This document shows positions 26,526 through 63,228 of a DNA stretch of 64,000 nucleotides, in pieces. Every line of letters starts with the position of its first letter. Positions within the stretch are counted from its first letter, which is position 1. The notes below the pieces were generated by a model, which had not been told where the DNA came from, searched no databases, and saw only the letters and a program-made list of their open reading frames with translations. The position numbers were made by a program, and so were the translations under genes. Origin of the DNA: Streptomyces kanamyceticus (GTDB lineage Bacteria > Actinomycetota > Actinomycetes > Streptomycetales > Streptomycetaceae). Location of the stretch: positions 5,642,001-5,706,000 of the forward strand of contig NZ_CP023699.1 of assembly GCF_008704495.1 (NCBI RefSeq). The letters are read 5' to 3'.

Positions 26526-28103
26526 CTAGGGCCGCGAGAAGCGTTCCCGCAGGCGGTACTTGAGCACCTTGCGCAGTGTCTCGTTGCGCGGGAGGGCCTC
26601 CACCACCTCCAGTTGCTCCGGCAGCTTGTAGGTGGCGAGGCCCTCCTCGCGCAGGTACGAGGTGACCGCGGCCAGCGTCAATTCCGGTGCGCCCGGCGGC
26701 TGTTCGAGGACCGCGCAGACCCGTTCCCCGCGCTCGGGGTCGGGCAGCCCGACGACCGCCGCGTCGCCGACGGCCGGGTGCTGGTGGAGCAGGTCCTCGA
26801 TCTCCTTGGCCGAGATGTTCTCGCCCTTGCGGATGATGATGTCCTTGGCCCGCCCGGTCAGGACCAGATGGCCGCTCTCCTTGACGTGGCCGAGGTCGCC
26901 GGTGATCAGGAAGCCGTCCGCGTCGAAGACGCCCGCGCTCTGCCCGGGGTCCAGGTAGCCCTGGCAGACGGCCTCGCCGCGCAGCCGCACCTCGCCGTCC
27001 GTCCCGGGCGGCAGCTCCTTGCCCTCGGCGTCCGTGACGCGGATCCGCATGCCGTCGGGCGGCAGCCCCTCGGTCGTCGCGAGGTTCTCCGCCGTGTCGT
27101 CGGGCGCGCCCATCGTGATCATCGGCACTTCGGTCATGCCGTAGCCGTGGGTGAGCTGGCAGCCCATCTCGCGTACGACGGCGTGATAGATCTCCGGAGG
27201 CTTGGGCGCCCCGCCGCCCGCGAGGAGGCGCAGCGTGGGTATGAGCCGTTCGCCGGGCGGCAGTTGGCGCTGCTGGGTGAGGAACATCGAGTAGAACGCC
27301 GTCGAGCCGCCCGCCACCGTCACGCCGTGCCGCCGGTAGCCGTCGAGCGAGTCCGGCAGCGCGAACCGCTCGAACATCACCGCGGGGAAGCCGTAGAGCA
27401 GCAGCATCACGGTGTAGTCGGGGCCCGCGATGTGCGCGAAGGGGAACGCCATCGAGCCGACGTCGGACGAGGTCAGGTGCAGCGCGTGGGCCAGGCACGA
27501 GCCGCCCGCGATCAGCGAACGGTCGGTGTGCAGCACGCCCTTGGGGTCGGAGGTGGTGCCCGACGTCCAGTAGATCCAGCGTACGGAGGTGCCGTCGGCG
27601 GGCGGCGCGGGCAGCACCGCGGGGTCGCCGTCGGGCAGCTCGTCGTACGCCTCGAAGACCGTGAATCGGCCCTGCTCGGCGAGGCTCCGGGCCATCGTCG
27701 TGTGGTCGAAGCCGCGCCAGACGCCGGGCACCGCGAAGAACTCCGCCTTCGACTCCCGCAGCGCGAAGCCGACTTCGCGGTCGCGGTAGAAGGGGATCAC
27801 CGGGGACTGGACCGCGCCGATGCGGGCAAGGGCGAAGGAGAGCAGCGCCGTCTCGATGCGGGTGGGCAGCTGCCAGGCGACGACCGTGCCGGGGCGTACG
27901 CCCATCGCGTACAGGCCCGCCGCGACGCGTTCGGCGCGGTCCCGCAGCCCGCCGAAGGTCAGCGTTTTGTCGTCGGCGGGGTCGTCGGCCGACTGGATGA
28001 GGACGGGCGCTTCGGGGGTGAGTGCGGCGCGGCGCTCGATGAGCTCCCAGAGGGTGCGGGAGGCGCCCAGTTCGTACGCGGTCTCGTTCTCCGAGGTCCT
28101 CAT
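26526..28103 (-). CDS. AMP-forming acyl-CoA synthetase (alicyclic-acid type)
   Basis: A 525-residue class I adenylate-forming enzyme: phosphate loop YWTSGTTSDPKGV (about 178-190), GYGMTEVPMITMG, TGDLGHVKESGHLVLTGRAKD and a hinge/catalytic Lys region in ALPRNETLRKVLKYRLRE. It activates a carboxylic acid to its CoA thioester. The wording is closest to cyclohexanecarboxylate/cyclohexene-carboxylate CoA ligases and to actinobacterial FadD relatives. It is divergent from an acyl-CoA dehydrogenase pair, and a CTGAC-N5-GTCAG palindrome lies 31 bases before its ATG. The catalytic motifs are intact. The true substrate is unknown. Confidence 0.9.
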   Translation of the reverse strand: MRTSENETAYELGASRTLWELIERRAALTPEAPVLIQSADDPADDKTLTFGGLRDRAERVAAGLYAMGVRPGTVVAWQLPTRIETALLSFALARIGAVQSPVIPFYRDREVGFALRESKAEFFAVPGVWRGFDHTTMARSLAEQGRFTVFEAYDELPDGDPAVLPAPPADGTSVRWIYWTSGTTSDPKGVLHTDRSLIAGGSCLAHALHLTSSDVGSMAFPFAHIAGPDYTVMLLLYGFPAVMFERFALPDSLDGYRRHGVTVAGGSTAFYSMFLTQQRQLPPGERLIPTLRLLAGGGAPKPPEIYHAVVREMGCQLTHGYGMTEVPMITMGAPDDTAENLATTEGLPPDGMRIRVTDAEGKELPPGTDGEVRLRGEAVCQGYLDPGQSAGVFDADGFLITGDLGHVKESGHLVLTGRAKDIIIRKGENISAKEIEDLLHQHPAVGDAAVVGLPDPERGERVCAVLEQPPGAPELTLAAVTSYLREEGLATYKLPEQLEVVEALPRNETLRKVLKYRLRERFSRP

Positions 28104-28133
28104 GCGGTCCAGATCCCCTCTTGAAGGGCGTAA

Positions 28134-28148
28134 CTGACGGATAGTCAG
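28134..28148. promoter_or_regulatory. TetR-type operator, site 1
   Basis: CTGACGGATAGTCAG, perfect 5-bp arms, upstream of the CoA ligase encoded at 26526-28103. It is identical to site 12 at 61586. On the minus strand it overlaps a plausible -10 (TATCCG). Confidence 0.75.
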
Positions 28149-28211
28149 ATCAGGTCGAGAGCGTAAGCTTCGACGCCTTGTCGGTCCAGGGGTGCGGGGC
28201 TAGCCTGCCTT

Positions 28212-28226
28212 CTGACGGGTCATCAG
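28212..28226. promoter_or_regulatory. TetR-type operator, site 2
   Basis: CTGACGGGTCATCAG, one arm mismatch (ATCAG for GTCAG), 34 bases before the acyl-CoA dehydrogenase GTG at 28261. Confidence 0.7.
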
Positions 28227-28260
28227 ATAGCCCGGTGGGGCTGTGGGAGGTAGGCGCCGC

Positions 28261-29424
28261 GTGGACCTCACGTACACCGCGGAGGAGGACGAGTTCCGGG
28301 CGCGCCTGAGCCGGTGGCTCGCCCGGACGCTCCCCGAACTGCCGCCGCCCCCCGACCCGCTGGACTGGCCGGGGCGGCGGGCGTACGACATGGGGTGGCA
28401 GCGCAGGCTGTACGACGCCGGGTACGCCGGCCTGCACTGGCCCGTCGACGCGGGCGGCCGGGGCGCGACGCCCACGCAGCACCTGATCTACCTGGAGGAG
28501 ACGGAGAAGGCGGGCGCACCCTACGTAGGGGCCAATTTCGTCGGCCTGCTGCACGCGGGCCCGACCATCGCCTCCGAAGGGAGCGCCGAACAGCGCGCGC
28601 GGTGGCTGCCGCCGGTGCTGCGCGGCGACGAGGTGTGGTGCCAGGGCTTCAGCGAGCCCGACGCCGGATCCGACCTCGCGTCGCTGCGCACGCGCGCGTG
28701 GCGCGACGGCGACCACTACGTAGTGAGCGGATCCAAGATCTGGACCTCGCACGCCGAGGTCGCCGACTGGTGCGAACTCCTGGTCCGCACCACCCCGGTG
28801 AGCGAGTCCGTGCCCAAGCACCGCGGCATCTCCTGGCTCGCGATGCCGATGGACGCGCCCGGGATCACCGTGCGTCCCTTGCGTACGCTCGCCGGGTCCA
28901 CGGAGTTCGCCGAGATGTTCCTCGACGAGGTCAGGGTGCCGGTGGCCAACCGGGTCGGCGACGAGAACGACGGCTGGCGCGTGACGATGGTGACCCTGTC
29001 GTACGAGCGGGGCACCGCCTTCGTGGGGGAGGTGGTGGCCTGTCGGCGCGTCCTTGGCGAACTCGCCCGCGAGGCAAGCAAGAACGGCCGCTGGGACGAC
29101 GCGGTCCTGCGCCGCAGGCTCGGGCGCCTCAGCGCGGAGTTCGGCGCCCTGTGGCGGCTCACCCAGTGGAACGTGAGCGAGTCCCAGCACACCGGCGGGG
29201 TGCCGGGCGTCGGCGGCTCGGTCTTCAAACTGCGCTACTCGCACGCGCGCCAGGAGCTGTACGACGCGGCCGCCGACGTGCTCGGCCCCGGCGCGCTCGA
29301 CCTCGGCCACCCGTGGGCCCTCGACCGGCTCTCCTCGCTGTCCTACACGATCGCCGCGGGGACCTCGCAGATCCAGCAGAACATCGTCGCCGAGCGGATA
29401 CTCGGCCTCCCGAAGGGGCGGTGA
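28261..29424 (+). CDS. Acyl-CoA dehydrogenase, large-type subunit
   Basis: A 387-residue FAD-dependent acyl-CoA dehydrogenase: an N-terminal helical domain, a middle beta domain with WCQGFSEPDAGSDLASLRT (about 130-148) and KIWTSHAEVADW, and a C-terminal domain ending in TIAAGTSQIQQNIVAERILGLP. Where the medium-chain family has the catalytic Glu (YEGTSQIQ), this protein has Ala (AAGTSQIQ), so its base must lie elsewhere or the enzyme works as a heteromer, as in actinobacterial steroid FadE pairs. GTG 28261 has GGGAGG upstream. The next gene, 7 bases away, encodes a short partner subunit. Confidence 0.9.
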   Translation: MDLTYTAEEDEFRARLSRWLARTLPELPPPPDPLDWPGRRAYDMGWQRRLYDAGYAGLHWPVDAGGRGATPTQHLIYLEETEKAGAPYVGANFVGLLHAGPTIASEGSAEQRARWLPPVLRGDEVWCQGFSEPDAGSDLASLRTRAWRDGDHYVVSGSKIWTSHAEVADWCELLVRTTPVSESVPKHRGISWLAMPMDAPGITVRPLRTLAGSTEFAEMFLDEVRVPVANRVGDENDGWRVTMVTLSYERGTAFVGEVVACRRVLGELAREASKNGRWDDAVLRRRLGRLSAEFGALWRLTQWNVSESQHTGGVPGVGGSVFKLRYSHARQELYDAAADVLGPGALDLGHPWALDRLSSLSYTIAAGTSQIQQNIVAERILGLPKGR

Positions 29425-29431
29425 GGTCCGT

Positions 29432-30328
29432 ATGGATTTCCAACTCACAGAGGATCAGCGCGCGTTGCGGGACGGCGTGCGCGACCTCCTGGAGGGGCGG
29501 TTCGACCGCGCGGCGCTGCGGGCCGCCGTGGACGCGTCCGAGCGGGCGGGGACCGCACCGCTCGACCGGGAGCTGTGGCGCGAGCTCGGCGCCGCCGGGT
29601 TCTTCTCGCTGACCCTGCCGGAGGCCGAGGGTGGCGTCGGGCTCGGGCTCCCCGAGGCGGTGCTCGCCTTCGAGGAGGCAGGGCGGGTGCTGCTGCCGGG
29701 GCCCTTGGTGGCCACCTTCCTCGCCGCGGGGGACATTCCGGGCGCCGCGTCCGGGGACGTGATGGTGACGTCCGCCGACGGGTCGCTGGTCGCCTGGCTC
29801 GACGAGGCCGACGTCGTACGCGGGGACGTGAGCGGCGCCGTCCCCGCCCGGTCGGTTGACCCGCTGACACCGCTGCACCGGCTGCCTGCTGGTGGCTCCG
29901 GGGCCTCCGGCGGCGCTTTCCGGGCCGGTGCCGGTGCGCTGCTCACCGCCGCCGAGCAGCTCGGCAGCGCCGCGCGCACCACGGAGATGGCCGTTCAATA
30001 TGCCCGCGAACGGGCACAGTTCGGACAGTTGATCGGTGCCTTCCAGGCCGTGAAGCACCTCTGCGCACAGATGCTCGTACGCGCGGAGACCGCCCGCGCC
30101 GCCGTCTACGCGGCGGCCGTCACCGGGGACCCGCTGGAGGTGTGCGGGGCCAAGCTGCTCGCCGACGACGCCGCGGTGCGCAACGCGAGGGACTGCCTCC
30201 AGGTGCACGGCGGGATGGGCTTCACCTGGGAGGCGGACGTGCACCTGCATCTGAAGCGGGCCTGGGTGCGGGCCGGTGCCGGGCGGTCGGCGGGCGACGC
30301 CGAGGAGGCGCTCGCCGCCGCGCTGTGA
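29432..30328 (+). CDS. Acyl-CoA dehydrogenase, short partner subunit
   Basis: A 298-residue protein, about 80 residues shorter than a standard acyl-CoA dehydrogenase: the middle beta domain is largely missing (after LLPGPLVATFLAAGD it passes quickly to GAGALLTAAEQLG). The C-terminal helical domain is intact, with YARERAQFGQLIGAFQAVKHLCA and HGGMGFTWEADVHLHLKRAW. This resembles the partner subunits of alpha2beta2 steroid-type FadE enzymes, in which the two chains share FAD sites. It follows its large-type subunit by 7 bases, so the two surely form one operon. Confidence 0.88.
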   Translation: MDFQLTEDQRALRDGVRDLLEGRFDRAALRAAVDASERAGTAPLDRELWRELGAAGFFSLTLPEAEGGVGLGLPEAVLAFEEAGRVLLPGPLVATFLAAGDIPGAASGDVMVTSADGSLVAWLDEADVVRGDVSGAVPARSVDPLTPLHRLPAGGSGASGGAFRAGAGALLTAAEQLGSAARTTEMAVQYARERAQFGQLIGAFQAVKHLCAQMLVRAETARAAVYAAAVTGDPLEVCGAKLLADDAAVRNARDCLQVHGGMGFTWEADVHLHLKRAWVRAGAGRSAGDAEEALAAAL

Positions 30329-32605: not shown

Positions 32606-32637
32606 CTGACGGGTCATAGAATCTAACGGTCCGTCAG
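32606..32637. promoter_or_regulatory. TetR-type operators, sites 3 and 4
   Basis: Two adjacent sites lie in the divergent promoter region of the cyclase and SDR genes: CTGACGGGTCATAGA (32606-32620, right arm degenerate) and CTAACGGTCCGTCAG (32623-32637, one mismatch). Confidence 0.65.
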
Positions 32638-32659: not shown

Positions 32660-33571
32660 GTGGGGAACTTCTTGGCAGGCAAGGTGGTGGCCGTGACCGG
32701 CGCCGGGCGCGGCATCGGCAGGGCCGTCGCGCTCGCCGCGGCAGCCGAGGGAGCGAGGGTCGTCGTCAACGACTACGGCGTCTCCATGGAAGGCGGCGAG
32801 CCGACCAGCGAGATAGCCGACGCCGTGGTCAAGGAGATCCAGGCCGCGGGCGGCGAGGCCGTCGCCGTCGCCGACGACATCTCCACCATGGCGGGCGGCC
32901 AGCGCATCGTCGACGTCGCGCTCGCCGAGTACGGGCGCGTCGACGGCGTCGTCTGCGTCGCCGGGATCCTGCGCGAACGCATGCTCTTCAACATGTCCGA
33001 ACAGGAGTGGGACCCCGTCGTCGCCACCCACCTGAAGGGCACCTTCACCGTCTTCAGGGCCGCGTCCGCCGTCATGCGCAAGCAGGGCACCGGCACGCTC
33101 ATCGGCTTCACCAGCGGCAACCACCAGGGCTCCGTCGCGCAGGCCAACTACAGCGCGGCCAAGGGCGGGATCATCTCGCTGGTGCGCAGCGCGGCGCTCG
33201 GCCTCAACAAGTACGGCGTGACCGCCAACGCCGTCGCGCCCGTCGCCCGTACGCGCATGTCGGCGAACGTGCCGATGGAGCTCAAGGAGATCGGCGAGCC
33301 CGAGGACGTCGCCGCCCTCGTCACCTATCTGCTCAGCGACCGGGCCCGCGAGGAGAAGATCACCGGGCAGGTCTACACGATCGCCGGACCCAAGATCGCC
33401 GTCTGGGCGCAGCCGCGCGAGCTGCGGGCCGGGTACGCGGACGGCGCATGGACCCCGGAGAAGATCGCCGACTTCCTGCCGGGGACGGTCGGCGTCGACC
33501 CCATGCCGATGCTGGCGCAGCTGGAGGCCATGGCCAAGGCGGCGGCCGCCAAAGACCGGCCGAACGCGTAG
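32660..33571 (+). CDS. SDR-family 3-hydroxyacyl-CoA dehydrogenase-like
   Basis: A 303-residue short-chain dehydrogenase: NAD(P) motif TGAGRGIG (13-20), VAGIL (100-104), and the catalytic triad Ser152, Tyr164, Lys168 (NYSAAKGG). The C-terminus is about 50 residues longer than a classical SDR and reads YTIAGPKIAVWAQPRELRAGY, as in the Hsd4A/multifunctional-enzyme type that oxidises 3-hydroxyacyl-CoA or 17-hydroxysteroid groups. GTG start. It is the first gene of an SDR-acyl-CoA dehydrogenase-alcohol dehydrogenase operon. Confidence 0.88.
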   Translation: MGNFLAGKVVAVTGAGRGIGRAVALAAAAEGARVVVNDYGVSMEGGEPTSEIADAVVKEIQAAGGEAVAVADDISTMAGGQRIVDVALAEYGRVDGVVCVAGILRERMLFNMSEQEWDPVVATHLKGTFTVFRAASAVMRKQGTGTLIGFTSGNHQGSVAQANYSAAKGGIISLVRSAALGLNKYGVTANAVAPVARTRMSANVPMELKEIGEPEDVAALVTYLLSDRAREEKITGQVYTIAGPKIAVWAQPRELRAGYADGAWTPEKIADFLPGTVGVDPMPMLAQLEAMAKAAAAKDRPNA

Positions 33572-39653: not shown

Positions 39654-40322
39654 TCAGGTCGTGAACCGGCCGAACTTGCCGCGGTGGAAGAGCAGCGGCT
39701 CTCCGTCGGCATCGGCGGAGTCGGTGCCGAGCGCGTCGACGCGGCCGACCACGATCAGGTGGTCGCCGCCGGTGTGCACGGCCTGGACCGTGCAGTCGAT
39801 CCAGGCGGGCGCACCGGTGAGGCGCGGCGAACCGGACACCGGGGCCGCGTCGTAGACCACCCCGGCGAACTTGTCGGCGCCGCTCACCGCGAAGCCGCGG
39901 CAGAGCTCGCCCTGGTCGGCGCCCAGGACGTTCACGCAGAAGACGCCCGCGCGCGCGATCCGGGGCCACGTCGTCGACGTACGCGCGACCATGAAGGAGA
40001 CCAGCGGCGGGTCGAGGGAGAGCGAGGAGAAGGACTGGCAGGCGAAACCGGCGGGGCCCGCCTCGCCGTCCGCGGCGGGTGCGGTGACAACGGTCACGCC
40101 CGTCGCGAAGTTCCCCAGCACACGCCGGAATTCGCCCGGATCGAGCGGCGCCCGCTCGTCGTCGCCGACCGCGCGCAGTCGGGGGCGCGGCGGCGCGCCC
40201 GGGTACGGCCCGGCGGCGGCCGGGGAAGTTTCGACGGGCCCCGTAGTGGTGGGGGCCCCGACCGACCTGAGGTATCGGACGGCGGTGGCCGCCATCCCTG
40301 CGTGTCCCATCACATCCACCAT
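39654..40322 (-). CDS. Flavin reductase family protein
   Basis: Up to 222 residues. The flavin reductase domain (about 62-222) has FRRVLGNFATGVTVVTAP, GFACQSFSSLSLDPPLVSFMV, FCVNVL and the C-terminal PLLFHRGKFGRF. Such proteins reduce FMN/FAD with NAD(P)H for a separate monooxygenase (HpaC/HsaB type). About 55 residues of Pro/Ala/Arg-rich N-terminal extension precede the domain. Starts at 40322 (MVDV) or 40310 (MGHAG) are both possible. An operator lies 6 bases upstream of the first, so it is probably part of the catabolic regulon, but no two-component monooxygenase partner is encoded next to it. Confidence 0.88.
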   Translation of the reverse strand: MVDVMGHAGMAATAVRYLRSVGAPTTTGPVETSPAAAGPYPGAPPRPRLRAVGDDERAPLDPGEFRRVLGNFATGVTVVTAPAADGEAGPAGFACQSFSSLSLDPPLVSFMVARTSTTWPRIARAGVFCVNVLGADQGELCRGFAVSGADKFAGVVYDAAPVSGSPRLTGAPAWIDCTVQAVHTGGDHLIVVGRVDALGTDSADADGEPLLFHRGKFGRFTT

Positions 40323-40327: not shown

Positions 40328-40342
40328 CTGACGGGGTGTCAG
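40328..40342. promoter_or_regulatory. TetR-type operator, site 5
   Basis: CTGACGGGGTGTCAG, perfect arms, between the divergent flavin reductase and the hypothetical membrane protein. Confidence 0.75.
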
Positions 40343-42377: not shown

Positions 42378-44603
42378 TCAGCGGCAGACGGCGAGCGCGT
42401 CGAGCGCCACGGCGCCCTGCCCGCGGGGCAGCACCATCAAGGGGTTGATGTCGAGTTCGGCGAGGTCGTCGCCCAGTTCCAGGGCCATCCGCTGCACCCG
42501 CAGGACGACTTCGACGAGCGCGTCGACATCGGCGGGCGGCGCCCCCCTGACCCCGTCGAGCAGGGCGCGCCCCCGCAGTTCGGACAGCATCGTCTTCGCC
42601 TGGTCCTCCCCGAAGGGCGGCACGCGCACGGCCGCGTCCCTGAGGACCTCGACGAGCACGCCGCCGAGCCCGACGGTCACCGTCGGGCCGAACAGGGAGT
42701 CGTGGGTGACGCCGACGACCATCTCGACCCCCGGCTCGACCATCTGGCAGACCAGTACGCCGTCCAGCGCGATGCCCTCGTAGCGGGCGATGTCGGTGAG
42801 CTCCCGGTAGGCGTCGCGGATCTGGCTCGCCGAGGTCAACCCGACCTTCACCAGGCCCAGTTCGGTCTTGTGCGCGAGCTGCGGGCCGGACGCCTTCATG
42901 ACGACGGGGTAGCCGACGAGCCCGGCCGCGCGGACGGCCGCCGCCGCGCTGGTCACCAACTGCTCGCGCGGTACGCGAATCCCGTACGCGCGCAGCAGCT
43001 GCTTCGCCGCGTGCTCGCTGAGCTGCTGGCCGGGCCGCATCAGGGCCTGGGCCTTGCGGAAGGAGGGCGAGGGGGAGCGCGGCGCCTCGTCGAAGGGCGA
43101 GCGGTAGCCGGCCGTGAAGCGGTGGTGGTCGAGATAGGCGCCCACCGCCGTGATGCAGTTGGCGAACGTGCGGAAGGTGGCGACGCGCGAGGAGCCGAGC
43201 AGCGTGTGGCGGTAGGCGTCCTCGGTGCCGACCGGCGAGCCCCACACCACGCACACCAGCTTGTCCGTCTGCTCCGCCGCGTCCACCAGGTCCTGCGCGA
43301 GCTTGTCGCTCATCGGCGGGAAGGGGCCGGTGATCGGACAGATCAGCACCCCCACCTCAGGGTCGTCGAGGATGGCGTCGATGATCTTGCGGCCGCGCCA
43401 GTCGCCGACCGGGTGGCCGCCGTTGTCGACGGGGTTGGCGACGTTCAGGTACTCCGGTATCCACTGGTGCAGTTCCGCCTGCTTGGCGGCGGAGAGCGTG
43501 GGAAGCCGCAGCCCGCGCTCGCTCGCCAGGTCGGAGAAGTGCGCGCCCGTGCCGCCCGAGATCGAATAGACGACGACGCCGTCGGCGCTCGGCCTGCGCG
43601 CCCTCGCCAACAGGGCGGAGGTGTCCTGGAGTTCATCGAGCCCGTCCACGCGGATCACGCCGAACTGCCGCATCGCCGCGTCCACCACCGCGTCGGCGCC
43701 GGTCAGTTTGCCGGTGTGTGAGGCGGCCATGCGGGCGCCGGTCTCGGTGCGGCCCACCTTGACGGCGACGACGGGCACCCCGCGCCGGGCCGCCCGGTCG
43801 GCGGCGAGCAGGAACGAGCGGCCGTCCTTGAGGCCCTCCACGTAGCAGGCGATGGCGCCGACCTCGGGGCGCTCGGCGAAGTAGGAGATGAAGTCGGCGG
43901 TCTCCAGGTCGGCCTCGTTGCCGGTGGGCGCCCAGTGCGAGAGGCGGACGCCGAGTTCCTGCATGGTGAAGACGGGGCGGCCCTGGTGCCCGGACTGGGT
44001 GATCAGCGCGATGGCGGGGCCTTCGAGGTCGTCGCGGAACCTCTCGAAGGCGTTGAGGTTGGTGTTCGGCCCGAGCAGCCTGAGCCCGGAGCGTCCTACG
44101 GCCGCGGCGAGCCTGGCCTGGGCGGCCGCGCCTGCCTCGCCGGTCTCGGCGAACCCGGAGGCGAAGGCGACGGCGAAGCGCACCTTCTCCTCGGCGAGCT
44201 GCTCGATCACGGGCCCCGGGTCGCCGACCAACAGCACGGCCAGATCGACCTGTTCGGGCAGGTCCGCGACGGAGGGGAAGCAGGGGATGCCGAAGACGGA
44301 CTGACGGGTGGGGTGCACGGGATGCAGTCGCGCGCCGACCCGCTCGGACCAGGCGATCAGCTGCCGGGTGATGCCGGTGTTGGGGCGGCCCTCGGCGTCC
44401 GACGCGCCGATGACGGCGACGGACTCGGGCCGGAAGAAGCGATCGAGGTCGGGTACGTCGGAGTGCAGCGGTCGGCCGCTGACGTCCAGGTCGTCCGCCG
44501 TGGCGGCCCTGCCGTGGACGGCGGGGGGTGGGAGTTCGCCGCAGGCCACAACATGCGCGCGGCGGGGGTCGGTGGTGAAGGTGCCGTGAGTCGATCCAAG
44601 CAT
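42378..44603 (-). CDS. ADP-forming acyl-CoA synthetase (ACD type)
   Basis: A 741-residue fused acyl-CoA synthetase (NDP-forming). It has a CoA-binding Rossmann domain (about 55-160, PESVAVIGASDAEGRPNTGI), a succinyl-CoA ligase-like domain (about 190-400, with the phospho-His candidate in AASHTGKLTG), and a C-terminal ATP-grasp domain (about 505-735, KQLLRAYGIRVPRE, GYPVVMKASGPQLAHKTELG, LDINPLMV). It forms an acyl-CoA from acid, ATP and CoA reversibly. Two perfect operators lie upstream (44636-44674). It is probably the first gene of an operon with the enoyl-CoA hydratase. The substrate is unknown. Confidence 0.9.
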   Translation of the reverse strand: MLGSTHGTFTTDPRRAHVVACGELPPPAVHGRAATADDLDVSGRPLHSDVPDLDRFFRPESVAVIGASDAEGRPNTGITRQLIAWSERVGARLHPVHPTRQSVFGIPCFPSVADLPEQVDLAVLLVGDPGPVIEQLAEEKVRFAVAFASGFAETGEAGAAAQARLAAAVGRSGLRLLGPNTNLNAFERFRDDLEGPAIALITQSGHQGRPVFTMQELGVRLSHWAPTGNEADLETADFISYFAERPEVGAIACYVEGLKDGRSFLLAADRAARRGVPVVAVKVGRTETGARMAASHTGKLTGADAVVDAAMRQFGVIRVDGLDELQDTSALLARARRPSADGVVVYSISGGTGAHFSDLASERGLRLPTLSAAKQAELHQWIPEYLNVANPVDNGGHPVGDWRGRKIIDAILDDPEVGVLICPITGPFPPMSDKLAQDLVDAAEQTDKLVCVVWGSPVGTEDAYRHTLLGSSRVATFRTFANCITAVGAYLDHHRFTAGYRSPFDEAPRSPSPSFRKAQALMRPGQQLSEHAAKQLLRAYGIRVPREQLVTSAAAAVRAAGLVGYPVVMKASGPQLAHKTELGLVKVGLTSASQIRDAYRELTDIARYEGIALDGVLVCQMVEPGVEMVVGVTHDSLFGPTVTVGLGGVLVEVLRDAAVRVPPFGEDQAKTMLSELRGRALLDGVRGAPPADVDALVEVVLRVQRMALELGDDLAELDINPLMVLPRGQGAVALDALAVCR

Positions 44604-46332: not shown

Positions 46333-46393
46333 AAACGCGTAACCGCCGACCGACGTGCGCGTACCCGCAAGCCGAAGTGGAAGAGGCCACGGC

Positions 46394-46843
46394 ATGGACT
46401 CGATCTGGCTCACCGGCGCCGAATGGCTCGCCGTGCTCCGCATAGGCCTCGGTCTGTGGTGGCTGGAGAGCTGGCGCCACAAGGACAAGAAAGGCTGGTT
46501 CGAGCGGGGTACGGGCATCGCGTGGGCGTCCGACGTGGCCGCCAAGCACAAGTGGAACGCGGTCCGCAGCGGCTTCGACACGGTCGTCGCGCCCCGGCCG
46601 AAGACGATGGCGTACGTCGTCGTCTATGCCGAACTCGCCCTCGGGCTAGGCCTGATCGTCGGCCTCCTCACCCCGATCGCGCTGCTCGGCGGCCTGCTCC
46701 TCAACCTCCTCTACCTCGTCCTGATGATCCACGACTGGGCCGAGCAGGGGCAGAACGCGATGATGGCGCTCGCCTCGCTCGTCGCCCTCTTCGCCATGTC
46801 CTGGCAGAGCTGGTCGCTCGACAACGCGATCGGACTCTTCTGA
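46394..46843 (+). CDS. DoxX-like membrane protein
   Basis: A 149-residue protein with about four helices: WLAVLRIGLGLWWLESW near the start, then TMAYVVVYAELALGLGLIVGLLTPIALLGGLLLNLLYLVLMI (quoted as two adjacent helices, about 73-115) and ASLVALFAMSW. This is the DoxX/DoxD family, associated with thiosulfate:quinone oxidoreductases and with redox partners of membrane enzymes. Its stop overlaps the next start (TGATG). A place in the catabolic regulon suggests an electron-transfer or membrane-anchoring job, not shown directly. Confidence 0.82.
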   Translation: MDSIWLTGAEWLAVLRIGLGLWWLESWRHKDKKGWFERGTGIAWASDVAAKHKWNAVRSGFDTVVAPRPKTMAYVVVYAELALGLGLIVGLLTPIALLGGLLLNLLYLVLMIHDWAEQGQNAMMALASLVALFAMSWQSWSLDNAIGLF

Positions 46844-50477: not shown

Positions 50478-51659
50478 TCACCCCCGCCCCAACACCACCG
50501 TCCCCGAAGAGCAGAACCACCCACCCGTCCCCGAAGCCACCGCCAGTTTCGGCAGGTCGCCGTCGGGGCGGCGGACCTGTCCTTCGCCCGCCTGGCCGCG
50601 CAGTTGCCGTACCGCCTCCACGAGCAGGAACAGGCCCCGCATGCCCGGGTGTTGGGCGGAGAGGCCGCCGCCGTCCGTGTTGGTCGGCAGTTCGCCGTCC
50701 CGCAGCAGTCTGCCCTTCTCCACGAAGGCGCCGCCCTCGCCCTTGGCGCAGAAGCCGAGGTCCTCCAGGGTCACCATCGTCATATAGGTGAAGGCGTCGT
50801 AGATCTGCGCGATGTCGATGTCGGCGGGCCGCACGCCCGCGCGTTCGAACGCGAGGCGGCCGCTGATCGCTGCCGGGGAGACCGTGAAGTCGTCCCACTC
50901 GGACATCGTGGTGTGCGAGACGTGCTCGCCCGCGCCGAGCACCCACACCGGCTCGGACGCGCAGTCCTGTACGTAGTCCTCGGCGGCCAGCAGGACCGCG
51001 CAGCCGCCGTCGGAGCGTATGCAGCAGTGCAGTTTGGTGAACGGGTCCGCGATCATCGGGCCGCTCAGGACGTCGTCGACGGTGATCGGGTCGCGGTACA
51101 TCGCGTCCGGATTGGCCGCCGCGTTCGCCCGTGCCTGGACGGCCACCGAGGCGAGCTGTTCGAGGGTCGTGCCGTATTCGTGCATGTGGCGGCGCGCGGC
51201 CATCGCGTACTTCGCGATCAGGGAGTGCCCGTAGGGGACTTCGAACTGCAGCGGGCCCCGCGCGCCGAACGACAGGTTGGACGTGCGCCGTTTCGCCTTG
51301 ATGTCCGCGCGGGCCGTCGAGCCGTACACGAGGAGCACGGCGTTCGCCCGACCCGCCGCGATCGCCTCCGCCGCGTGCGCCGCCATCACCTCCCAGGTGG
51401 CTCCGCCGACCGAAGTCGAGTCCACCCAAAGGGGTTTGAGCCCCAGGTACTCCGCGACCTCGACCGGTGCGAGCGTGCCGAGGCCCGCCGACGCGACCCC
51501 GTCGATCACCTCGCGGCCGAGCCCGGAGTCGGCGAGCGCGCGACGGGCGGCCTGGGCGTGCAGGGCGTAGGGCGTGGCCTCGTCGACCCGGCCGCAGTCC
51601 GAGAGGGCCACGCCGACGACGGCGACCTTGCGGGAGGTGGAGCGGGTAGCTGTAGCCAT
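50478..51659 (-). CDS. SCP-x/Ltp-type thiolase-fold protein
   Basis: A 393-residue thiolase-superfamily protein. VAVVGVALSDCG opens the fold, AAHAAEAIAAGRANAVLLVYG follows, and the C-terminal half has AQIYDAFTYMTMVTLEDLGFCAKGEGG and LPTNTDGGGLSAQHPG. At the position of the nucleophilic Cys of true thiolases it reads VGGATWEVMA, with no Cys. Loss of that Cys, together with DUF35 partners, is known for Ltp2-type retro-aldolases of steroid side-chain breakdown; this protein probably cleaves by the same kind of reaction. An operator lies 5 bases from its ATG. Confidence 0.88.
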   Translation of the reverse strand: MATATRSTSRKVAVVGVALSDCGRVDEATPYALHAQAARRALADSGLGREVIDGVASAGLGTLAPVEVAEYLGLKPLWVDSTSVGGATWEVMAAHAAEAIAAGRANAVLLVYGSTARADIKAKRRTSNLSFGARGPLQFEVPYGHSLIAKYAMAARRHMHEYGTTLEQLASVAVQARANAAANPDAMYRDPITVDDVLSGPMIADPFTKLHCCIRSDGGCAVLLAAEDYVQDCASEPVWVLGAGEHVSHTTMSEWDDFTVSPAAISGRLAFERAGVRPADIDIAQIYDAFTYMTMVTLEDLGFCAKGEGGAFVEKGRLLRDGELPTNTDGGGLSAQHPGMRGLFLLVEAVRQLRGQAGEGQVRRPDGDLPKLAVASGTGGWFCSSGTVVLGRG

Positions 51660-51663: not shown

Positions 51664-51678
51664 CTGACGGTACATCAG
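51664..51678. promoter_or_regulatory. TetR-type operator, site 9
   Basis: CTGACGGTACATCAG, one arm mismatch, 5 bases before the thiolase ATG at 51659. A site this close to the start implies a very short or absent leader. Confidence 0.7.
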
Positions 51679-51807: not shown

Positions 51808-51822
51808 ATGACGGCCCGTCAG
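51808..51822. promoter_or_regulatory. TetR-type operator, site 10
   Basis: ATGACGGCCCGTCAG, one arm mismatch, 41 bases before the acyl-CoA dehydrogenase ATG at 51864. Confidence 0.68.
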
Positions 51823-51863: not shown

Positions 51864-53201
51864 ATGGACGCCGCCTTCAGTGCGGAGCAGGGCGAGATCC
51901 GCCGCACTCTTCGCGAAGTGATCACCAAACGCTGCGGCCCCGACGAGGTCAAGGCCGCTGTGCGCACCCCTGCCGGGTACGACGCCGCCCTCTGGGCCGC
52001 CCTCGCCGAACAGCTCGGCCTTCCGGGGCTCGCGCTCCCGGACACGTATGGAGGCGTGGGCTGCACGCCCGCCGAACTAGCGCTTGGCTGCGAGGAGTTG
52101 GGGCGGGCCCTCGCGCCGTCCCCGCTCTTCGCCACCGCCGTGCTCGCCGCCCCGCTGATCCTCGCGCTCGGCACCGACGAACAGCGCGCCGAACTGCTTC
52201 CCCGCATCGCCGCGGGCGAGCTGACCGCGACGCTCGCCGTGCCCGGCGCCGGGCTCGCCACGGCGCTCGGCCTGGTCGGCGACAACACCGGCGACTGGGC
52301 CGGTGGCGGTCGCGCGGGCGGGGTGCAGGCCAGGCTCTCGGAGGGCGGGTGGCGGCTCTACGGGCAGGCCGAGCAGGTCCTCGACGGGCACAGCGCTGGG
52401 CTGCTCGTGGTGGCCGCGCACGCGGGTGGCTTCGCCCGTTCCCGTACGCTCCTCTTCCTCGTGCGCGAGGGAGCCGCGGGCATGGTGCGGGCGCGGCAGA
52501 CCGCACTCGACGAGACCCGCACCCAGGCGCGCGTCGAACTGCGCGACGTCGAGGCGGAGTTGTTGGGCGACGACCAGGTTGTCGGCCAGGATGTCGGCCA
52601 AGGTGACGGCCAGGGTGTCGGCCAAGGTGACGGCCAAGGCGATCAGCAGGGTGGCGACCGGGTCGACGTGCCCGCCGCGCTCGCCGCCGTCGGCGACGTC
52701 GCCGCCACCGTCGTCGCCGCAGAGGCCGTCGGCGCCGCCGACCGGGTCATGGAGCGCACCGTCGAATACGTCAAGCAGCGCGAGCAGTTCGGCCGCGCCA
52801 TCGGGTCCTTCCAGGCGGTCAAGCACCGCCTCGCCGACGTGTACGTCCAGGTGCAGGCCGCCAGGTCGGCCGCCTACTACGCGGCGTGGGCCGCGGGAGC
52901 CGAGGCCGCGGGCTTCGGCGGGCAGGGCGCCGAACGGGCCGGTGGGCTCGCCCTCGCGCAGGGCCTCGACGCGCTGCGCACCGCCGCGTCCGAGGCGGTA
53001 CAGCTGCACGGCGGCATCGGCTTCACCTGGGAGCACGAGGCCCATCTGTACTTCAAGCGGGCGTCGAGCGACGAGCTGCTCTTCGGGCCCGTCCACCGGC
53101 TGCGGGCCCGCGCGGCCGAACGCGCGGAGCTGTTCGAGGAGGGCGTACGACAGGAGGCGGCCGTGCCCCACGCCGCCGCCGAGCTCGGAGAGGCCGTCTG
53201 A
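51864..53201 (+). CDS. Acyl-CoA dehydrogenase with Gly/Gln insert
   Basis: A 445-residue acyl-CoA dehydrogenase of the partner-subunit type: LGLPGLALPDTYGGVGCTPAEL, LRDVEAELLG in the middle, YVKQREQFGRAIGSFQAVKHRLADVYVQ, and HGGIGFTWEHEAHLYFKRA near the end. Between LLG and VPAALAAV lies a low-complexity insert (about 235-268) in which VGQGDGQG repeats, encoded by a short DNA repeat (about 52575-52650). It lies at the junction of the middle and C-terminal domains. The next gene overlaps its stop (TGATG). It could pair with the subunit encoded at 33580-34851. Confidence 0.88.
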   Translation: MDAAFSAEQGEIRRTLREVITKRCGPDEVKAAVRTPAGYDAALWAALAEQLGLPGLALPDTYGGVGCTPAELALGCEELGRALAPSPLFATAVLAAPLILALGTDEQRAELLPRIAAGELTATLAVPGAGLATALGLVGDNTGDWAGGGRAGGVQARLSEGGWRLYGQAEQVLDGHSAGLLVVAAHAGGFARSRTLLFLVREGAAGMVRARQTALDETRTQARVELRDVEAELLGDDQVVGQDVGQGDGQGVGQGDGQGDQQGGDRVDVPAALAAVGDVAATVVAAEAVGAADRVMERTVEYVKQREQFGRAIGSFQAVKHRLADVYVQVQAARSAAYYAAWAAGAEAAGFGGQGAERAGGLALAQGLDALRTAASEAVQLHGGIGFTWEHEAHLYFKRASSDELLFGPVHRLRARAAERAELFEEGVRQEAAVPHAAAELGEAV

Positions 53202-53674
53202 TGCCACCGGGCGTACGTCTGATGCAGAAGGTGTCGTCCACCCGGACGTTCGCGAAAGTCGCGCCGCACTTCATCCCCGCGATGGACCGCGCGGTGCACC
53301 GGCTGACCCGCGGCAAGGTGCTGCTCAGCGCGAAGATGCTGCCGGGGGTGATCCTGACGGTGCGGGGGGCCAGGAGCGGGCTCCCCAGGCGTACGCCGCT
53401 GGCGTGCATGCCGCAGGAGAGCACGGGCGGCTGGGTGCTCATCGGCTCCAACTTCGGGCGCCCTGGGCACCCCGCCTGGACCGCCAACCTGCTGGCCCAC
53501 CCGGACGCCGACGTCAACTGGCGGGGCGCGGACATCCCGGTGCGGGCGCGGCTGTTGGAAGGGGAGGAGCGGGCGGCCGTATGGCAGGAGGCGCTGGTGT
53601 TCTGGCCGCCGTACGCCGCGTATCAATCCCGGATCGAGCGGGAGATCCGCCTGTTCAGGCTGGAGCGCCGCTGA
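53201..53674 (+). CDS. F420-dependent nitroreductase-family (Ddn-like) protein
   Basis: A 157-residue split-barrel protein. The family landmarks are LTRGKVLLSAKMLPGVILTVRGARSGLPRRTPLACMP (about 35-70), WVLIGSNFGRPGHPAWTANLLAHP (about 78-101) and ADIPVRARLL, where G-S-x-x-G-x-P-x-x-P-x-W-x-x-N-L is the F420-binding signature of DUF385/Ddn proteins. It would reduce quinones, enones or nitro compounds with F420H2. It is translationally coupled to the acyl-CoA dehydrogenase. A role in saturating a ring enone of the substrate is attractive but not shown. Confidence 0.88.
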   Translation: MPPGVRLMQKVSSTRTFAKVAPHFIPAMDRAVHRLTRGKVLLSAKMLPGVILTVRGARSGLPRRTPLACMPQESTGGWVLIGSNFGRPGHPAWTANLLAHPDADVNWRGADIPVRARLLEGEERAAVWQEALVFWPPYAAYQSRIEREIRLFRLERR

Positions 53675-53861: not shown

Positions 53862-54509
53862 CTACTTCGTCGGCTTCTTCCCGGTCACGCCCAAATGCAC
53901 CAACAATGCCAGATTCGGCTTCAGTTCGGCCTGCTTCACACCCCAGGTCTGGAAGCCGCGCTGGTGCGAGGCGACCGCGGCGAGCATCGCGACCAGGGAA
54001 CCGGCCATCGCCGCGGGGCTGACGTCCTTGTCGACCTTCCCCTTGGCCTGCAGCTCCTTCACCGTGTCGGTAAGGGAGTTGTTGACCGAGTTGAGGATCT
54101 TCATCCGGATCTTGTAGAAGCGCTTGTCGCCCTCGGCGGCGCCCAGGTCGACGACGCGCAGGATCGCGTCGTTCTTGCGCCAGAAGTCGAGGAACCCGTC
54201 GACCAGGTCCTGGGAGGTCTGCCAGCCCGCCTTGCCGACCCATGAGCGGCCGTCGAGCAGCTGCGTCAACTCGGCGCCCTCCGCGGCCATTTGCTCCGCG
54301 ATTTCCAGGACCGCGCCTTCCACGTCCGGGAAGTACTGGTAGAACGTCGCGGGTGAAGTGCCCGCCTTCCGGGCGACGTCGATGACTTTGACGTCCCGGT
54401 AGGGCGAGGAGCTGAGCATCTCGCTGAGGCAGTCGAGCAGTTTCTGACGTGTCGCCTGACCACGTCGACCGGCCACACGGCCGTCGACGGTACGTACCTG
54501 TCCTGTCAT
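53862..54509 (-). CDS. TetR-family regulator, likely regulator of the acyl-CoA regulon
   Basis: A 215-residue TetR protein. The HTH is at about 16-65 (RRGQATRQKLLDCLSEML, then DVKVIDVARKAGTSPATFYQYFPDVEGAVLEI), and the ligand/dimer domain follows. The wording resembles regulators of mycobacterial FadE/steroid-type clusters. It is the only TetR gene in the 37-kb catabolic block, so it is the best candidate to bind CTGAC-N5-GTCAG; an acyl-CoA would be the expected inducer. A degenerate copy of the motif (CTGTCATGCCGTCAG, 54503-54517) overlaps its own start codon and could mediate autoregulation. Confidence 0.88.
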   Translation of the reverse strand: MTGQVRTVDGRVAGRRGQATRQKLLDCLSEMLSSSPYRDVKVIDVARKAGTSPATFYQYFPDVEGAVLEIAEQMAAEGAELTQLLDGRSWVGKAGWQTSQDLVDGFLDFWRKNDAILRVVDLGAAEGDKRFYKIRMKILNSVNNSLTDTVKELQAKGKVDKDVSPAAMAGSLVAMLAAVASHQRGFQTWGVKQAELKPNLALLVHLGVTGKKPTK

Positions 54510-54797
54510 GCCGTCAGCTTACCGAGGGGTGATCGGAGCGCGATTCGGCCGAGTGCAAATGGGGTTGGGGCGCGTAGGGGCGGCCCTCCGCGCGTCCGGA
54601 AATAATTGAGCAAATGTTCGAATCGTGGTGATGTGGGGGCGGGGATTTGTCCTTAGACACCCCGATCCCGCCCCGGGTTCGCCACGACCGGCTCGGACAG
54701 GAAGAATCAGGGTGCGTGCCGCCGTAGCGGCTCGGTGGTGAGACGCTGCACGGGGCTGCCTTGTACGGCGGCCGCGTACGGGGAGGTGGCAGGGCAA

Positions 54798-60310: not shown

Positions 60311-60375
60311 TTGTGGTTGCTCGCGCTCACGCGGCGGAGCCGCATATTGATGCAGCCCCGCGCCCCTTACGGGGC
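60311..60375. repeat. Dispersed repeat overlapping thiolase stop codon
   Basis: TTGTGGTTGCTCGCGC (60311-60326) is shared with 44769-44784. CCCCGCGCCCC-TTAC-GGGGCCC (about 60356-60376) is the hairpin core shared with 5131-5200. The TTA at 60367-60369 is the TAA stop of the thiolase. The last two residues of both this thiolase and the sensor kinase, Ala-Pro, are encoded by the repeat. Confidence 0.7.
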
Positions 60376-61518
60376 CCTCAGCAGCACCGCCGACGTGGGG
60401 ACCCCTTCACCCGCCGTCACCAGACAAGTCGCCGCGTCCGGCACCTGGGCCGTGCTCGTGCCCCGTAGTTGCTTGACGCCCTCGTTGATGAGGTTGAAGC
60501 CGTGGACGTAGGCCTCGCTGAGGCCGCCGCCGCCGGTGTTGATGGGGAGGCGGCCGCCGCTCTCCAGGGCGCCGCCCTCGGTGAACGCGCCACCCTCGCC
60601 TCGGCCGCAGAAGCCGTAGCCCTCCAGGGAGAGCGGGATGAGTGGAGTGAAGGCGTCATAGATCTGCGCCACATCCACATCCTCCGGCCCGAAGTCGGCC
60701 TGCTTCCACAGGTGTCGGGCCGCCGTCCAGGCGGGTCCCGAGAGCGGGTCGTCGTTCCAGTAGTTGACCATGCCGTGGTGCTGGGCGGGCAGGCCCTGGG
60801 CGGTGGAGTGGACGTAGACGGGCTTCTGGCGGCAGTCGCGGGCGCGCTCGGCCGAGACGATGACGCACGCCAACGCCCCGTCGGTCTCCAGGCAGTTGTC
60901 GAAGAGGCAGAGGGGTTCGCTGATCCAGCGCGAGGTCATATACATGTCGCGGGTCAGTGGGCGCTCGTACATCATCGCGGCCGGGTTCTGGTTGGCGCGG
61001 TTGCGGCAGGCGAGGGCGACGTTGAAGAGGTGGTCGCGGGTCGTGCCGTACTCGTGCATGTGGCGGCGGGCCAGCATGGCTATCTCGTCGGCTGGGCGGA
61101 GCAGGCCGAAGGGTCGGGTCCACTGGGCCGGGGTGGGGAGTTGGACGGCCGTGTTCTTCCAGGGCCGGGGTCCGCTGCCGCGCTTGCGGGAGCGCCAGGC
61201 GATGCCGACGCTCGCCTGTCCGGTGGCGATCGCGGCGGCGAGGTGCGCGACCGTCGCGCACGAACCGCCGCCGCCGTAGCCGACCTTGCTGAAGAAGGTC
61301 ACGTCGCCGGCCCCGATGGCCTTGGCGACCTCGACCTCGTCGGTCTCCTCCATCGTGTACGAGGCGAACGCGTCGACCTCGGACGGGGCGATGCCCGCGT
61401 CGTCGAGCGCGGCGAGTATCGCCTTGCACGCCAACGTCTTCTCGCTGTCGGGGAGTTGTTTCGCGAAGGGGGTCTGGCCGATCCCGACTATCGCTGTAGC
61501 GTCCTTGAGTGAAGCCAT
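60367..61518 (-). CDS. SCP-x/Ltp-type thiolase
   Basis: A 383-residue thiolase-superfamily protein: TAIVGIGQTPFAK, then GYGGGGSCATVAHLAAAIATGQ, where a Cys is present at about the nucleophile position, and DVDVAQIYDAFTPLIPLSLEGYGFCGRGEGG and PINTGGGGLSEAYVHG. Unlike its paralogue at 50478-51659 it keeps the Cys, so it may be a true thiolase. ATG 61518 has GGAGG about 11 bases upstream; a GTG at 61530 is the alternative. It heads an operon with DUF35 and a crotonase. Two operators lie upstream, and the stop codon is inside a dispersed repeat. Confidence 0.9.
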   Translation of the reverse strand: MASLKDATAIVGIGQTPFAKQLPDSEKTLACKAILAALDDAGIAPSEVDAFASYTMEETDEVEVAKAIGAGDVTFFSKVGYGGGGSCATVAHLAAAIATGQASVGIAWRSRKRGSGPRPWKNTAVQLPTPAQWTRPFGLLRPADEIAMLARRHMHEYGTTRDHLFNVALACRNRANQNPAAMMYERPLTRDMYMTSRWISEPLCLFDNCLETDGALACVIVSAERARDCRQKPVYVHSTAQGLPAQHHGMVNYWNDDPLSGPAWTAARHLWKQADFGPEDVDVAQIYDAFTPLIPLSLEGYGFCGRGEGGAFTEGGALESGGRLPINTGGGGLSEAYVHGFNLINEGVKQLRGTSTAQVPDAATCLVTAGEGVPTSAVLLRAP

Positions 61519-61558
61519 GGGCAACGGCACCTCCGCCTTGTCGCGCGTGTCACCACTG

Positions 61559-61600
61559 CTGACAGCGCGTCAGGCTACAGCTAATCTGACGGATAGTCAG
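61559..61600. promoter_or_regulatory. TetR-type operators, sites 11 and 12
   Basis: CTGACAGCGCGTCAG (61559-61573) and CTGACGGATAGTCAG (61586-61600), both with perfect arms, centres 27 bp apart, in the divergent region between the thiolase operon and the FadD3-like ligase. Site 12 overlaps a plausible -10 (GATAGT) for the ligase. Confidence 0.78.
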
Positions 61601-61623
61601 CTACTGCAATGGGAGGGCTTGCG

Positions 61624-63228
61624 ATGCGCGGCGACCTGGAATGGGGCAGCATCCCGGCACTGGTGCGGGCGGCCGCCGCGCGGTACGGCGACCGGGAAGC
61701 GGTCGTCGAGGGCCGCACCCGCCTCTCGTACCGGGAACTGGGCGAGCGCGTGGAGCGGGCCGCCGCCGCGTGCATGGCCGACGGCGTCGAACCGGGCGAC
61801 CGCGTCGCCGTCTGGGCCCCGAACACCCTCGACTGGATCGTCTCCGCCCTCGGCGCGGTCTCGGCGGGCGCGGTCCTCGTCCCGCTCAACACCCGCTTCA
61901 AGGGCGCCGAGGCGGCCTACGTCCTGGAGCGCAGCCGCGCGAAACTCCTCTTCATCACGGGCACCTTCCTCGGTACGTCGTACGTCGCGTCCCTGCGCCG
62001 CGCGACGGCGGAGGGCCCCGGCGAGGGCCCGCTGCCCGGCCTTCCGCACCTGGAACGGGTCGTCGTGCTCTCGGACGACGCCCCCGACTCCTTCCGCACC
62101 TGGAAGGACTTCCTGGCGGGCGGCGACCGGGTGGCGGCCGACGCGGTCCGCGCGCGGGCGGCCTCGGTCGAGAGCTCGGCCCCCTCGGACATCATCTTCA
62201 CCTCGGGCACCACGGGGCGCCCCAAGGGTGCCGTCATCACCCACGCGCAGACCCTGCGCTGCTACGACGTGTGGAGCGAACTCGCGGGCCTGCGCGAGGG
62301 CGACCGCTATCTGATCGTGAACCCGTTCTTCCACACCTTCGGCTACAAGGCCGGGATCATCGCCTGCCTGATGCGCGGCGCGACGATGGTCCCGCAGCCC
62401 GTCTTCAACGTGGACACCGTCCTCGCCAACGTCGCCGCCGAGCGCATCTCCGTACTGCCGGGTCCCCCGACCCTGCACCAGTCGCTCCTGGACCACCCGG
62501 CGCGCGACCAACACGACCTGTCGGCGCTCCGCCTCGTGGTGACCGGCGCCGCGGTGGTGCCGCTCCAGCTCGTCGAGCGGCTCCGCAGCGAACTGCGGGT
62601 GGGCACCGTCCTGACGGCGTACGGACTCTCCGAGGCGAGCGGCTTCGTCACGATGTGCCGCAGGGGCGACCCGCTGGAGGTCATCGCGGCGACCTCGGGC
62701 CGCGCGATCCCCGGGACCGAGGTCCGCGTGGTCTCCCCCGCGGGGGAGACGCTGCCGCCCGGCAACCCCGGCGAGGTCCTCGTACGCGGCCACCACGTCA
62801 TGCGGGAGTACTTCGAGGACCCGGCGCAGACCGCCCTGGTGATCTCCCCGGACGGCTGGCTGCGGACCGGGGACGTGGGCGTGCTCGACGAACAGGGCAA
62901 CCTGCGCATCACGGACCGGATCAAGGACATGTTCATCGTCGGCGGCTTCAACGCCTACCCGGCCGAGATAGAGCAACTCCTCGGCGTCCACCCGGAGGTG
63001 GCGGACGTCGCGGTGATCGGCGTCCCCGACCCGCGCCTCGGCGAGGTGGGCAAGGCGTACGTGGTACGCCGCCCGGGCGCGCTCGTCACGGCGGACGACC
63101 TGATCGCCTGGTCGCGCCGGGAGATGGCGAACTACAAGGTGCCGAGGGCGGTGGAGTTCGTGGCGGAACTGCCGCGGAACGCGAGCGGGAAGGTGGTCAA
63201 GGGGGAGCTGCGGGGCGCGGCGCGCTAG
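61624..63228 (+). CDS. AMP-forming acyl-CoA ligase, FadD3-like
   Basis: A 534-residue acyl-CoA ligase with IIFTSGTTGRPKGAVITH (about 182-199), NPFFHTFGYKAGIIACL, VLPGPPTLHQSLLDHPAR, LTAYGLSEASGFVTMCRRGD, TGDVGVLDEQGNLRITDRIKDMFIVGGFNAYPAEIEQLLG, and the C-terminal PRNASGKVVKGELR with the catalytic Lys. From memory these blocks match mycobacterial FadD3, which activates the indane-propionate left from cholesterol rings. ATG 61624 has GGGAGGG at a good distance; the ATG at 61609 does not. The wording favours a bicyclic or alicyclic propionate as substrate, but that needs testing. Confidence 0.9.
   Translation: MRGDLEWGSIPALVRAAAARYGDREAVVEGRTRLSYRELGERVERAAAACMADGVEPGDRVAVWAPNTLDWIVSALGAVSAGAVLVPLNTRFKGAEAAYVLERSRAKLLFITGTFLGTSYVASLRRATAEGPGEGPLPGLPHLERVVVLSDDAPDSFRTWKDFLAGGDRVAADAVRARAASVESSAPSDIIFTSGTTGRPKGAVITHAQTLRCYDVWSELAGLREGDRYLIVNPFFHTFGYKAGIIACLMRGATMVPQPVFNVDTVLANVAAERISVLPGPPTLHQSLLDHPARDQHDLSALRLVVTGAAVVPLQLVERLRSELRVGTVLTAYGLSEASGFVTMCRRGDPLEVIAATSGRAIPGTEVRVVSPAGETLPPGNPGEVLVRGHHVMREYFEDPAQTALVISPDGWLRTGDVGVLDEQGNLRITDRIKDMFIVGGFNAYPAEIEQLLGVHPEVADVAVIGVPDPRLGEVGKAYVVRRPGALVTADDLIAWSRREMANYKVPRAVEFVAELPRNASGKVVKGELRGAAR

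Follow-up and report, generated by a model that had tools for sequence, protein, structure and literature searches.

The closest described systems to the locus considered here come from mycobacteria and from Streptomyces coelicolor. In mycobacteria, the TetR protein KstR (Rv3574) represses a large set of lipid and cholesterol genes (PMC1995591), while SCO4421 of S. coelicolor is expressed in spores in a whiA-dependent manner, with lower levels in a whiA mutant, and its function is unclear (PMC3878966). We analyzed 64,000 nucleotides of the Streptomyces kanamyceticus chromosome (NZ_CP023699.1, positions 5,642,001 to 5,706,000; this whole stretch is hereafter the window, and coordinates refer to it), in which the palindrome CTGAC-N5-GTCAG recurs among acyl-CoA catabolism genes and a SCO4421-type TetR gene lies at 53862-54509 (Table 1). 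Judged from sequence comparisons, the palindrome is very probably the operator of this TetR protein, which would act as the autoregulated repressor of a dispersed acyl-CoA regulon.

Seven perfect copies of CTGAC-N5-GTCAG were counted in the window, the number given in a preliminary description of this DNA, whereas 100 dinucleotide shuffles averaged 0.13. With up to one mismatch allowed, there were 13 sites vs. a shuffle mean of 2.66. As 0/100 shuffles reached either count, the clustering is beyond chance, as had been claimed. The one-mismatch additions comprise the sites at 28212, 32623, 51664, 51808, and 54503 (the TetR start) and one at 856, beyond the acyl-CoA block. No excess was seen in the window at up to two mismatches (33 sites vs. 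38.4 expected); thus only sites with zero or one mismatch are informative, and two-mismatch sites were dropped from the analysis. The gap of 5 is specific: in 144 kb of the S. kanamyceticus genome (the window plus four 20-kb stretches) 12 sites had this gap, vs. 0.14 expected from 5-mer frequencies, and none had gaps of 2–4 or 6–8. The preliminary description had listed twelve sites in nine promoter regions, all of them at acyl-CoA catabolism genes. Eleven of these positions stood, while 32606 was rejected as an operator, being a left half-site only, with four mismatches to the full palindrome. A recount gave eight promoter regions, the TetR start included. Not every site lies at an acyl-CoA enzyme gene: 40328 is between a flavin reductase gene and an open reading frame (ORF) without Pfam match, and 46318 between FMO and DoxX-like genes. 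The chance rate of once per million bases had been set somewhat low for the base composition, since shuffles gave about 2 per Mb and the median was 1.3 per Mb in genomes lacking a TetR_C_38 match.

A profile search found a single TetR_C_38 gene in the S. kanamyceticus genome, the one at 53862-54509. Its product also matched TetR_N (PF00440) with 26.8 bits (cut-off 24), and a search of the genome's proteins found no close paralogue (self-match 467.5 bits, next-best 23.8 bits). The recognition-helix and turn residues, GTSxATFYQYF, do not vary among 32 aligned TetR_C_38 proteins, and the AlphaFold model (mean pLDDT 91.8) has an all-helical fold with a ligand domain. A palindromic site at the regulator's own gene and at its candidate targets, a hallmark of TetR proteins, was found here at the level of site position. 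SAV3818 may be an orthologue in S. avermitilis.

The site at the TetR gene's own start, described earlier as degenerate, is one base off the consensus and strongly conserved. A one-mismatch site spans the TetR start codon, at the same position as 54503, in 80/80 named orthologous loci (79 titled Streptomyces and one Actinobacteria bacterium OV450), and it is kept in 14/15 further genomes of the same genus, locus L058 being the exception. Outside the genus, the start-site was found in 11/11 fetched TetR_C_38 genes of families f14, f12, and f18, vs. a random-window baseline of 390/7011. These were 6/6 in f14, where seven genomes have the domain and loci were available for six (none for G130) and where the TetR starts in loci L064 and L065 were placed by the helix motif, and 1/1 in f12. 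In f18, 4/4 genes have a one-mismatch site centered 30 bp before the called start; a fixed-window rule gave 1/4, since the ORFs start earlier. The start-site was missing from the single genes examined in f22 (0/1) and f4 (0/1, with a stop in frame). We also noted that the TetR_C_38 gene of locus L070 (genome G031) has one in-frame TGA and no start-site, in a genome with just 6 perfect sites.

We then compared site density in 197 genomes, with five Sporichthyaceae genomes (family f13) reported apart because they would dominate the comparison. The median number of perfect sites per Mb was 4.16 (range 1.47–8.00) in 29 genomes with TetR_C_38 and 1.29 (range 0–5.77) in 153 genomes without it; ten genomes with weak TetR_C_38 matches or a stop had a median of 1.27. 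The difference was also seen within f14 (p 0.015) and f18 (p 0.011), without correction for kinship. In f14, genome G130 was counted as a carrier on a partial match only, and genome G150 (68% complete), which lacks a TetR_C_38 match, has 15 sites; the f18 comparison group (n=11) takes in two weak matches (G162, G181). The pairing of the TetR family with this site is kept in other actinobacterial families.

To assess the targets, we took the starts of orthologous genes in the 80 loci as anchors; this test replaces an earlier figure for arm conservation, which was biased since its rows had been chosen by their sites. Results showed a perfect site in the orthologous promoters of FadD (36/36), the lipid-transfer protein Ltp (46/46), and the ADP-forming ligase (21/21), and a site with at most one mismatch for FadE (70/70) and thiolase (41/41), with FadD and Ltp, and likewise FadE and thiolase, sharing an intergenic region. 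Between FadD and Ltp, the two candidate operators have nearly fixed arms and are separated by 12 bp that are likewise nearly fixed; their spacers vary. The afsK promoters, used as a control, had a site in 0/17 cases, with at least two mismatches in the best; the control genes PNPOx and AlkZ-like yielded no orthologues. The same kinds of genes recurred in f14 genome G013, for which loci were obtained for 15/21 sites and where 12/15 sites had a called gene start at most 160 bp away. One site-bearing amidohydrolase of G013 is 64% identical to a site-bearing one of S. kanamyceticus, and its site-bearing F420 LLM enzymes are 66% and 48% identical to S. kanamyceticus LLM enzymes. Sites in G013 also precede acyl-CoA dehydrogenases (FadEs), an enoyl-CoA hydratase (ECH), and an F420H2 quinone reductase homologue. 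The f18 genome G100 (loci for 15/21 sites) had few promoter sites and added little.

Across the 10.13-Mb chromosome, 41 perfect sites were counted vs. 2 for a reversed-pattern control, and 411 vs. 183 at up to one mismatch; 38 distinct places of perfect sites were listed and examined. This whole-genome scan, proposed earlier as a check and made here with the consensus pattern, showed that the sites are not evenly spread: 12/38 lie within one 81-kb stretch holding acyl-CoA and F420 genes, with seven of these in the window and five outside. The 31 perfect sites outside the window met our promoter rule in 17 cases vs. 20.3% of random positions. The products of genes at these outer sites include acyl-CoA dehydrogenases, a MaoC hydratase, SDRs, two amidohydrolases, a second DoxX-like protein, and F420-dependent LLM enzymes, one of which scored above the Rv3520c-family cut-off; a thiolase (L036) beside an outer site narrowly failed the rule. 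The regulon reaches well beyond the window and, as it includes F420-dependent and amidohydrolase genes, is not purely one of acyl-CoA enzymes. Two further observations concern these outer places. Just past the window, L032:15516-20000 (genome 5721516-5726000) holds amidohydrolase, LLM, SDR, and LLM-like genes with four perfect sites. The DoxX-like paralogues at window 46355-46843 and L009:1539-1985 are 78% identical, each behind a perfect site, and the latter is divergent from an amidohydrolase gene.

The computations thus establish the site, its spacing, promoter position, and conservation, and its bond with the TetR family. The TetR protein, named earlier as the candidate regulator, is supported by its being the single TetR_C_38 gene, by the own-start sites, the site density, the invariant helix, the orthologous promoters, and the targets in G013. 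Binding, repression rather than activation, and a ligand are predicted parts of the model. A TetR dimer would sit on one or two copies of the operator near the start codons of its targets, two window promoters having tandem pairs spaced by 24 or 27 bp, and would thereby block their transcription, while a dimer across its own start codon would limit the level of the regulator. Release of the protein would be triggered by a ligand, which is probably a free acid or CoA thioester of the pathway, and would jointly switch on the acyl-CoA ligases and dehydrogenases, lipid-transfer/thiolase proteins, amidohydrolases, F420-dependent oxidoreductases, and DoxX-like proteins.

Several observations weigh against this interpretation. 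The 80 loci are close relatives (91–99% identity) and are therefore not independent, and the TetR genes of L058, L070, and L071 lack a site with zero or one mismatch at their start, as do those of three g13 genomes (3/5 of the Sporichthyaceae TetR genes). The density ranges of genomes with and without the gene overlap, kinship being uncorrected, and G011 and G022 have the gene yet just 7 and 5 sites. Among orthologous promoters, a perfect site was present in 13/18 for DoxX and just 5/25 for FMO, the remainder having at least three mismatches, and a site was found in 0/3 for ECH. Of the 31 perfect sites beyond the window, 14 failed the promoter rule, and some of the sites in promoters stand before genes that look unrelated, namely ABC transporters (L002, L029) and mreB-like and rfbA-like genes, called by eye from translations and not by profile search; these sites may be chance occurrences. 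Finally, deletion of SCO4421 gave no phenotype (PMC3878966).

Some of these data would suit a broader global or developmental regulator, with the acyl-CoA genes as one part of its role. The whiA-dependent expression of SCO4421 in spores (PMC3878966) points that way, as do the perfect sites at mreB-like, transporter, and sugar-nucleotide genes and the variation in the number of perfect sites, from 11 to 59 among 16 genomes of the same genus. We nevertheless consider it unlikely, since 12 of the 38 listed perfect sites fall into the one 81-kb stretch, genes of these kinds were met again in another family, and the odd sites may be chance, genomes that lack the gene having about 1.3 per Mb. It is less likely still that the operators are real and are read by another protein. 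The AraC/FtrA-like regulator encoded inside the block is one such candidate, and an unrelated TetR is another, there being four weak matches to other TetR-like genes in the genome. Yet in several families the site is found at the start of the TetR_C_38 gene itself, site density tracks this gene, a regular-expression scan of the 144 kb matched 53862-54509 and no second TetR, and the two-fold symmetry and fixed gap of the site fit a TetR dimer. That the palindromes are RNA hairpins (terminators or attenuators), for which some Sporichthya copies lying between convergent gene ends and containing stop codons might speak, is hardly credible in view of arms of just 5 bp with a gap fixed at 5, window sites that closely precede start codons, often those of divergent genes, and a density that follows a TetR gene.

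The Sporichthyaceae present a case of their own. All five genomes (G012, G035, G053, G069, G085) have a TetR_C_38 orthologue, that of G012 being identical to a Sporichthya polymorpha protein, and all five contain 232–473 perfect sites each (48–93 per Mb; control 2–7). In 400 kb of G012, 17 sites had the gap of 5 vs. 0.58 expected, with 0–1 each at gaps 0–4 and 6–8. Ten of the 17 were coding (92% of random positions were coding, with a gene caller that overcalls coding at 95%), four lay between convergent genes (1.5% of random positions), two were tandem, and one was at an edge. The first 30 listed sites of G012 (the two samples may overlap by a few sites) divided into 16 inside genes, 7 convergent, 5 tandem, and 2 divergent, so that copies inside genes or between convergent genes made up 23/30 and 14/17, respectively. 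Several of these palindromes contain stop codons, and the first 100 sites are uniformly spread over 2.06 Mb (Kolmogorov–Smirnov p 0.42). A one-mismatch site was found near the TetR start in two g44 genomes. Why one family would keep hundreds of copies, many of them inside genes, is the question these data raise. One conceivable answer, which we regard as doubtful, is that the Sporichthyaceae TetR_C_38 protein, with the same recognition helix, has turned from a repressor of catabolic genes into a protein that binds throughout the chromosome and serves in nucleoid organization or SlmA-like nucleoid occlusion. The S. kanamyceticus TetR protein scored 30.9 bits with the SlmA equivalog NF007015 (cut-off 120), and we know of no actinobacterial TetR protein with such a role. 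DNA methylation was considered as a reason for the excess, but neither CTGAC nor GTCAG occurs in the main text of a methylation paper naming Sporichthyaceae bins (PMC6329791). A second palindrome, AAGGG-N6-CCCTT, was also far over expectation in the G012 sample (L218-L237; 19 vs. 0.09).

Table 1. Candidate operators and neighboring genes in the S. kanamyceticus window
Feature	Position	Strand	Context or profile match
Candidate operator, perfect	28134..28148		Between divergent FadD (-) and FadE (+)
Candidate operator, 1 mismatch	28212..28226		Upstream of FadE 28243
Left half-site only	32606..32620		4 mismatches
Candidate operator, 1 mismatch	32623..32637		Upstream of SDR 32660
Candidate operator, perfect	40328..40342		Between flavin reductase (-) and ORF without Pfam match (+)
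Candidate operator, perfect	44636..44650		First of tandem pair 24 bp apart, upstream of ADP-forming acyl-CoA ligase
Candidate operator, perfect	44660..44674		Second of tandem pair upstream of ADP-forming acyl-CoA ligase
Candidate operator, perfect	46318..46332		Between FMO (-) and DoxX-like (+)
Candidate operator, 1 mismatch	51664..51678		Thiolase promoter
Candidate operator, 1 mismatch	51808..51822		Promoter of FadE 51864
Candidate autoregulatory operator, 1 mismatch	54503..54517		Across TetR start codon
Candidate operator, perfect	61559..61573		First of tandem pair 27 bp apart, between lipid-transfer protein (-) and FadD3-family ligase (+)
Candidate operator, perfect	61586..61600		Second of tandem pair between lipid-transfer protein and FadD3-family ligase
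Acyl-CoA ligase (FadD type)	26526..28103	-	NCBIfam matches, best below its cut-off
Acyl-CoA dehydrogenase, nearest profile PimC	28243..29424	+	209.1 bits, below cut-off
Acyl-CoA dehydrogenase, nearest profile IpdE2	29432..30328	+	140 bits, below cut-off
SDR oxidoreductase	32660..33571	+	248.5 bits, below best profile's cut-off
AraC/FtrA-like regulator	37196-38230		Within block
Flavin reductase, nearest profile HsaB	39654..40322	-	189.5 bits, cut-off 230 missed
ADP-forming acyl-CoA ligase family	42378..44603	-	362.1 bits, below cut-off
DoxX-like protein	46355..46843	+	Pfam DoxX 23 bits, just under cut-off 23.6
Thiolase-domain protein	50478..51659	-	406 bits, cut-off 421 missed
Acyl-CoA dehydrogenase, nearest profile IpdE2	51864..53201	+	195.7 bits, below cut-off
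F420H2-dependent quinone reductase family (PF04075)	53201..53674	+	Downstream of FadE; 88.9 bits, above cut-off
TetR regulator (TetR_C_38, PF19352), SCO4421-type	53862..54509	-	Beside afsK; PF19352 243.7 bits
Lipid-transfer protein / thiolase (NF005892)	60367..61530	-	583.9 bits, above cut-off 469
FadD3-family acyl-CoA ligase (NF005801)	61609..63228	+	799.3 bits, above cut-off 657

Two other features of the window were recorded, an Rfam Ms_IGR-5 actinobacterial small RNA at 12667-12893 (76.8 bits) and, near the thiolase gene, a gene for an Imm63-type immunity protein at 49085-49603.

Some of the gene kinds resemble those of the mycobacterial cholesterol gene cluster. The FadD3- and Ltp-family genes, the IpdE2- and HsaB-nearest genes (below cut-off), and the LLM enzyme above the Rv3520c-family cut-off hint at steroids. 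Steroid degradation was nevertheless not adopted as the pathway, because KshA_C (PF19298) had no match in the genome and 55/57 Streptomyces genomes were reported to be without steroid pathways (PMC4810484). The regulon hypothesis would tie scattered acyl-CoA, amidohydrolase, and F420-dependent genes into one pathway candidate. It would also give a conserved Streptomyces regulator, with no known target in the literature searched, a candidate operator together with a list of targets and a class of ligands to test, and the simplicity of the operator would make candidate targets readable from any genome carrying the TetR gene.

The CTGAC-N5-GTCAG motif was not found in the openly accessible literature by exact-string search, and the operator of MftR, which was also compared, differs from it (PMC8728441). 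In structure searches, EthR of M. tuberculosis was the best PDB fold match of the TetR protein (TM about 0.78, 16–17% identity), with a weak sequence match over residues 15-79. The TetR-type FadR of Thermus, Bacillus, and Sulfolobus gave a weaker fold match (TM 0.54–0.69), with FasR and DesT also further down; the likeness we propose to FadR is that of a repressor of acyl-CoA genes that may be released by acyl-CoA. SCO4421 is likewise a TetR gene near afsK, and it is this position, not an alignment, by which it is likened here; the available passages on it give developmental expression only and name no target, operator, or function (PMC3878966). KstR differs in its operator, TnnAACnnGTTnnA vs. 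CTGAC-N5-GTCAG here (PMC1995591), in that no chain named KstR was among the 11 PDB sequence matches of the TetR protein, and in steroid ring-degradation genes, of which KshA_C, the sole ring gene searched, had no match in S. kanamyceticus. It is alike in being an autoregulated TetR protein with lipid-catabolism targets, and in having a short palindrome in many intergenic regions, often between divergent genes, with two copies in one region (PMC1995591). The logic of a TetR lipid repressor is already known from KstR, and what appears to be new here is a candidate operator and a list of candidate targets for a SCO4421-type regulator.

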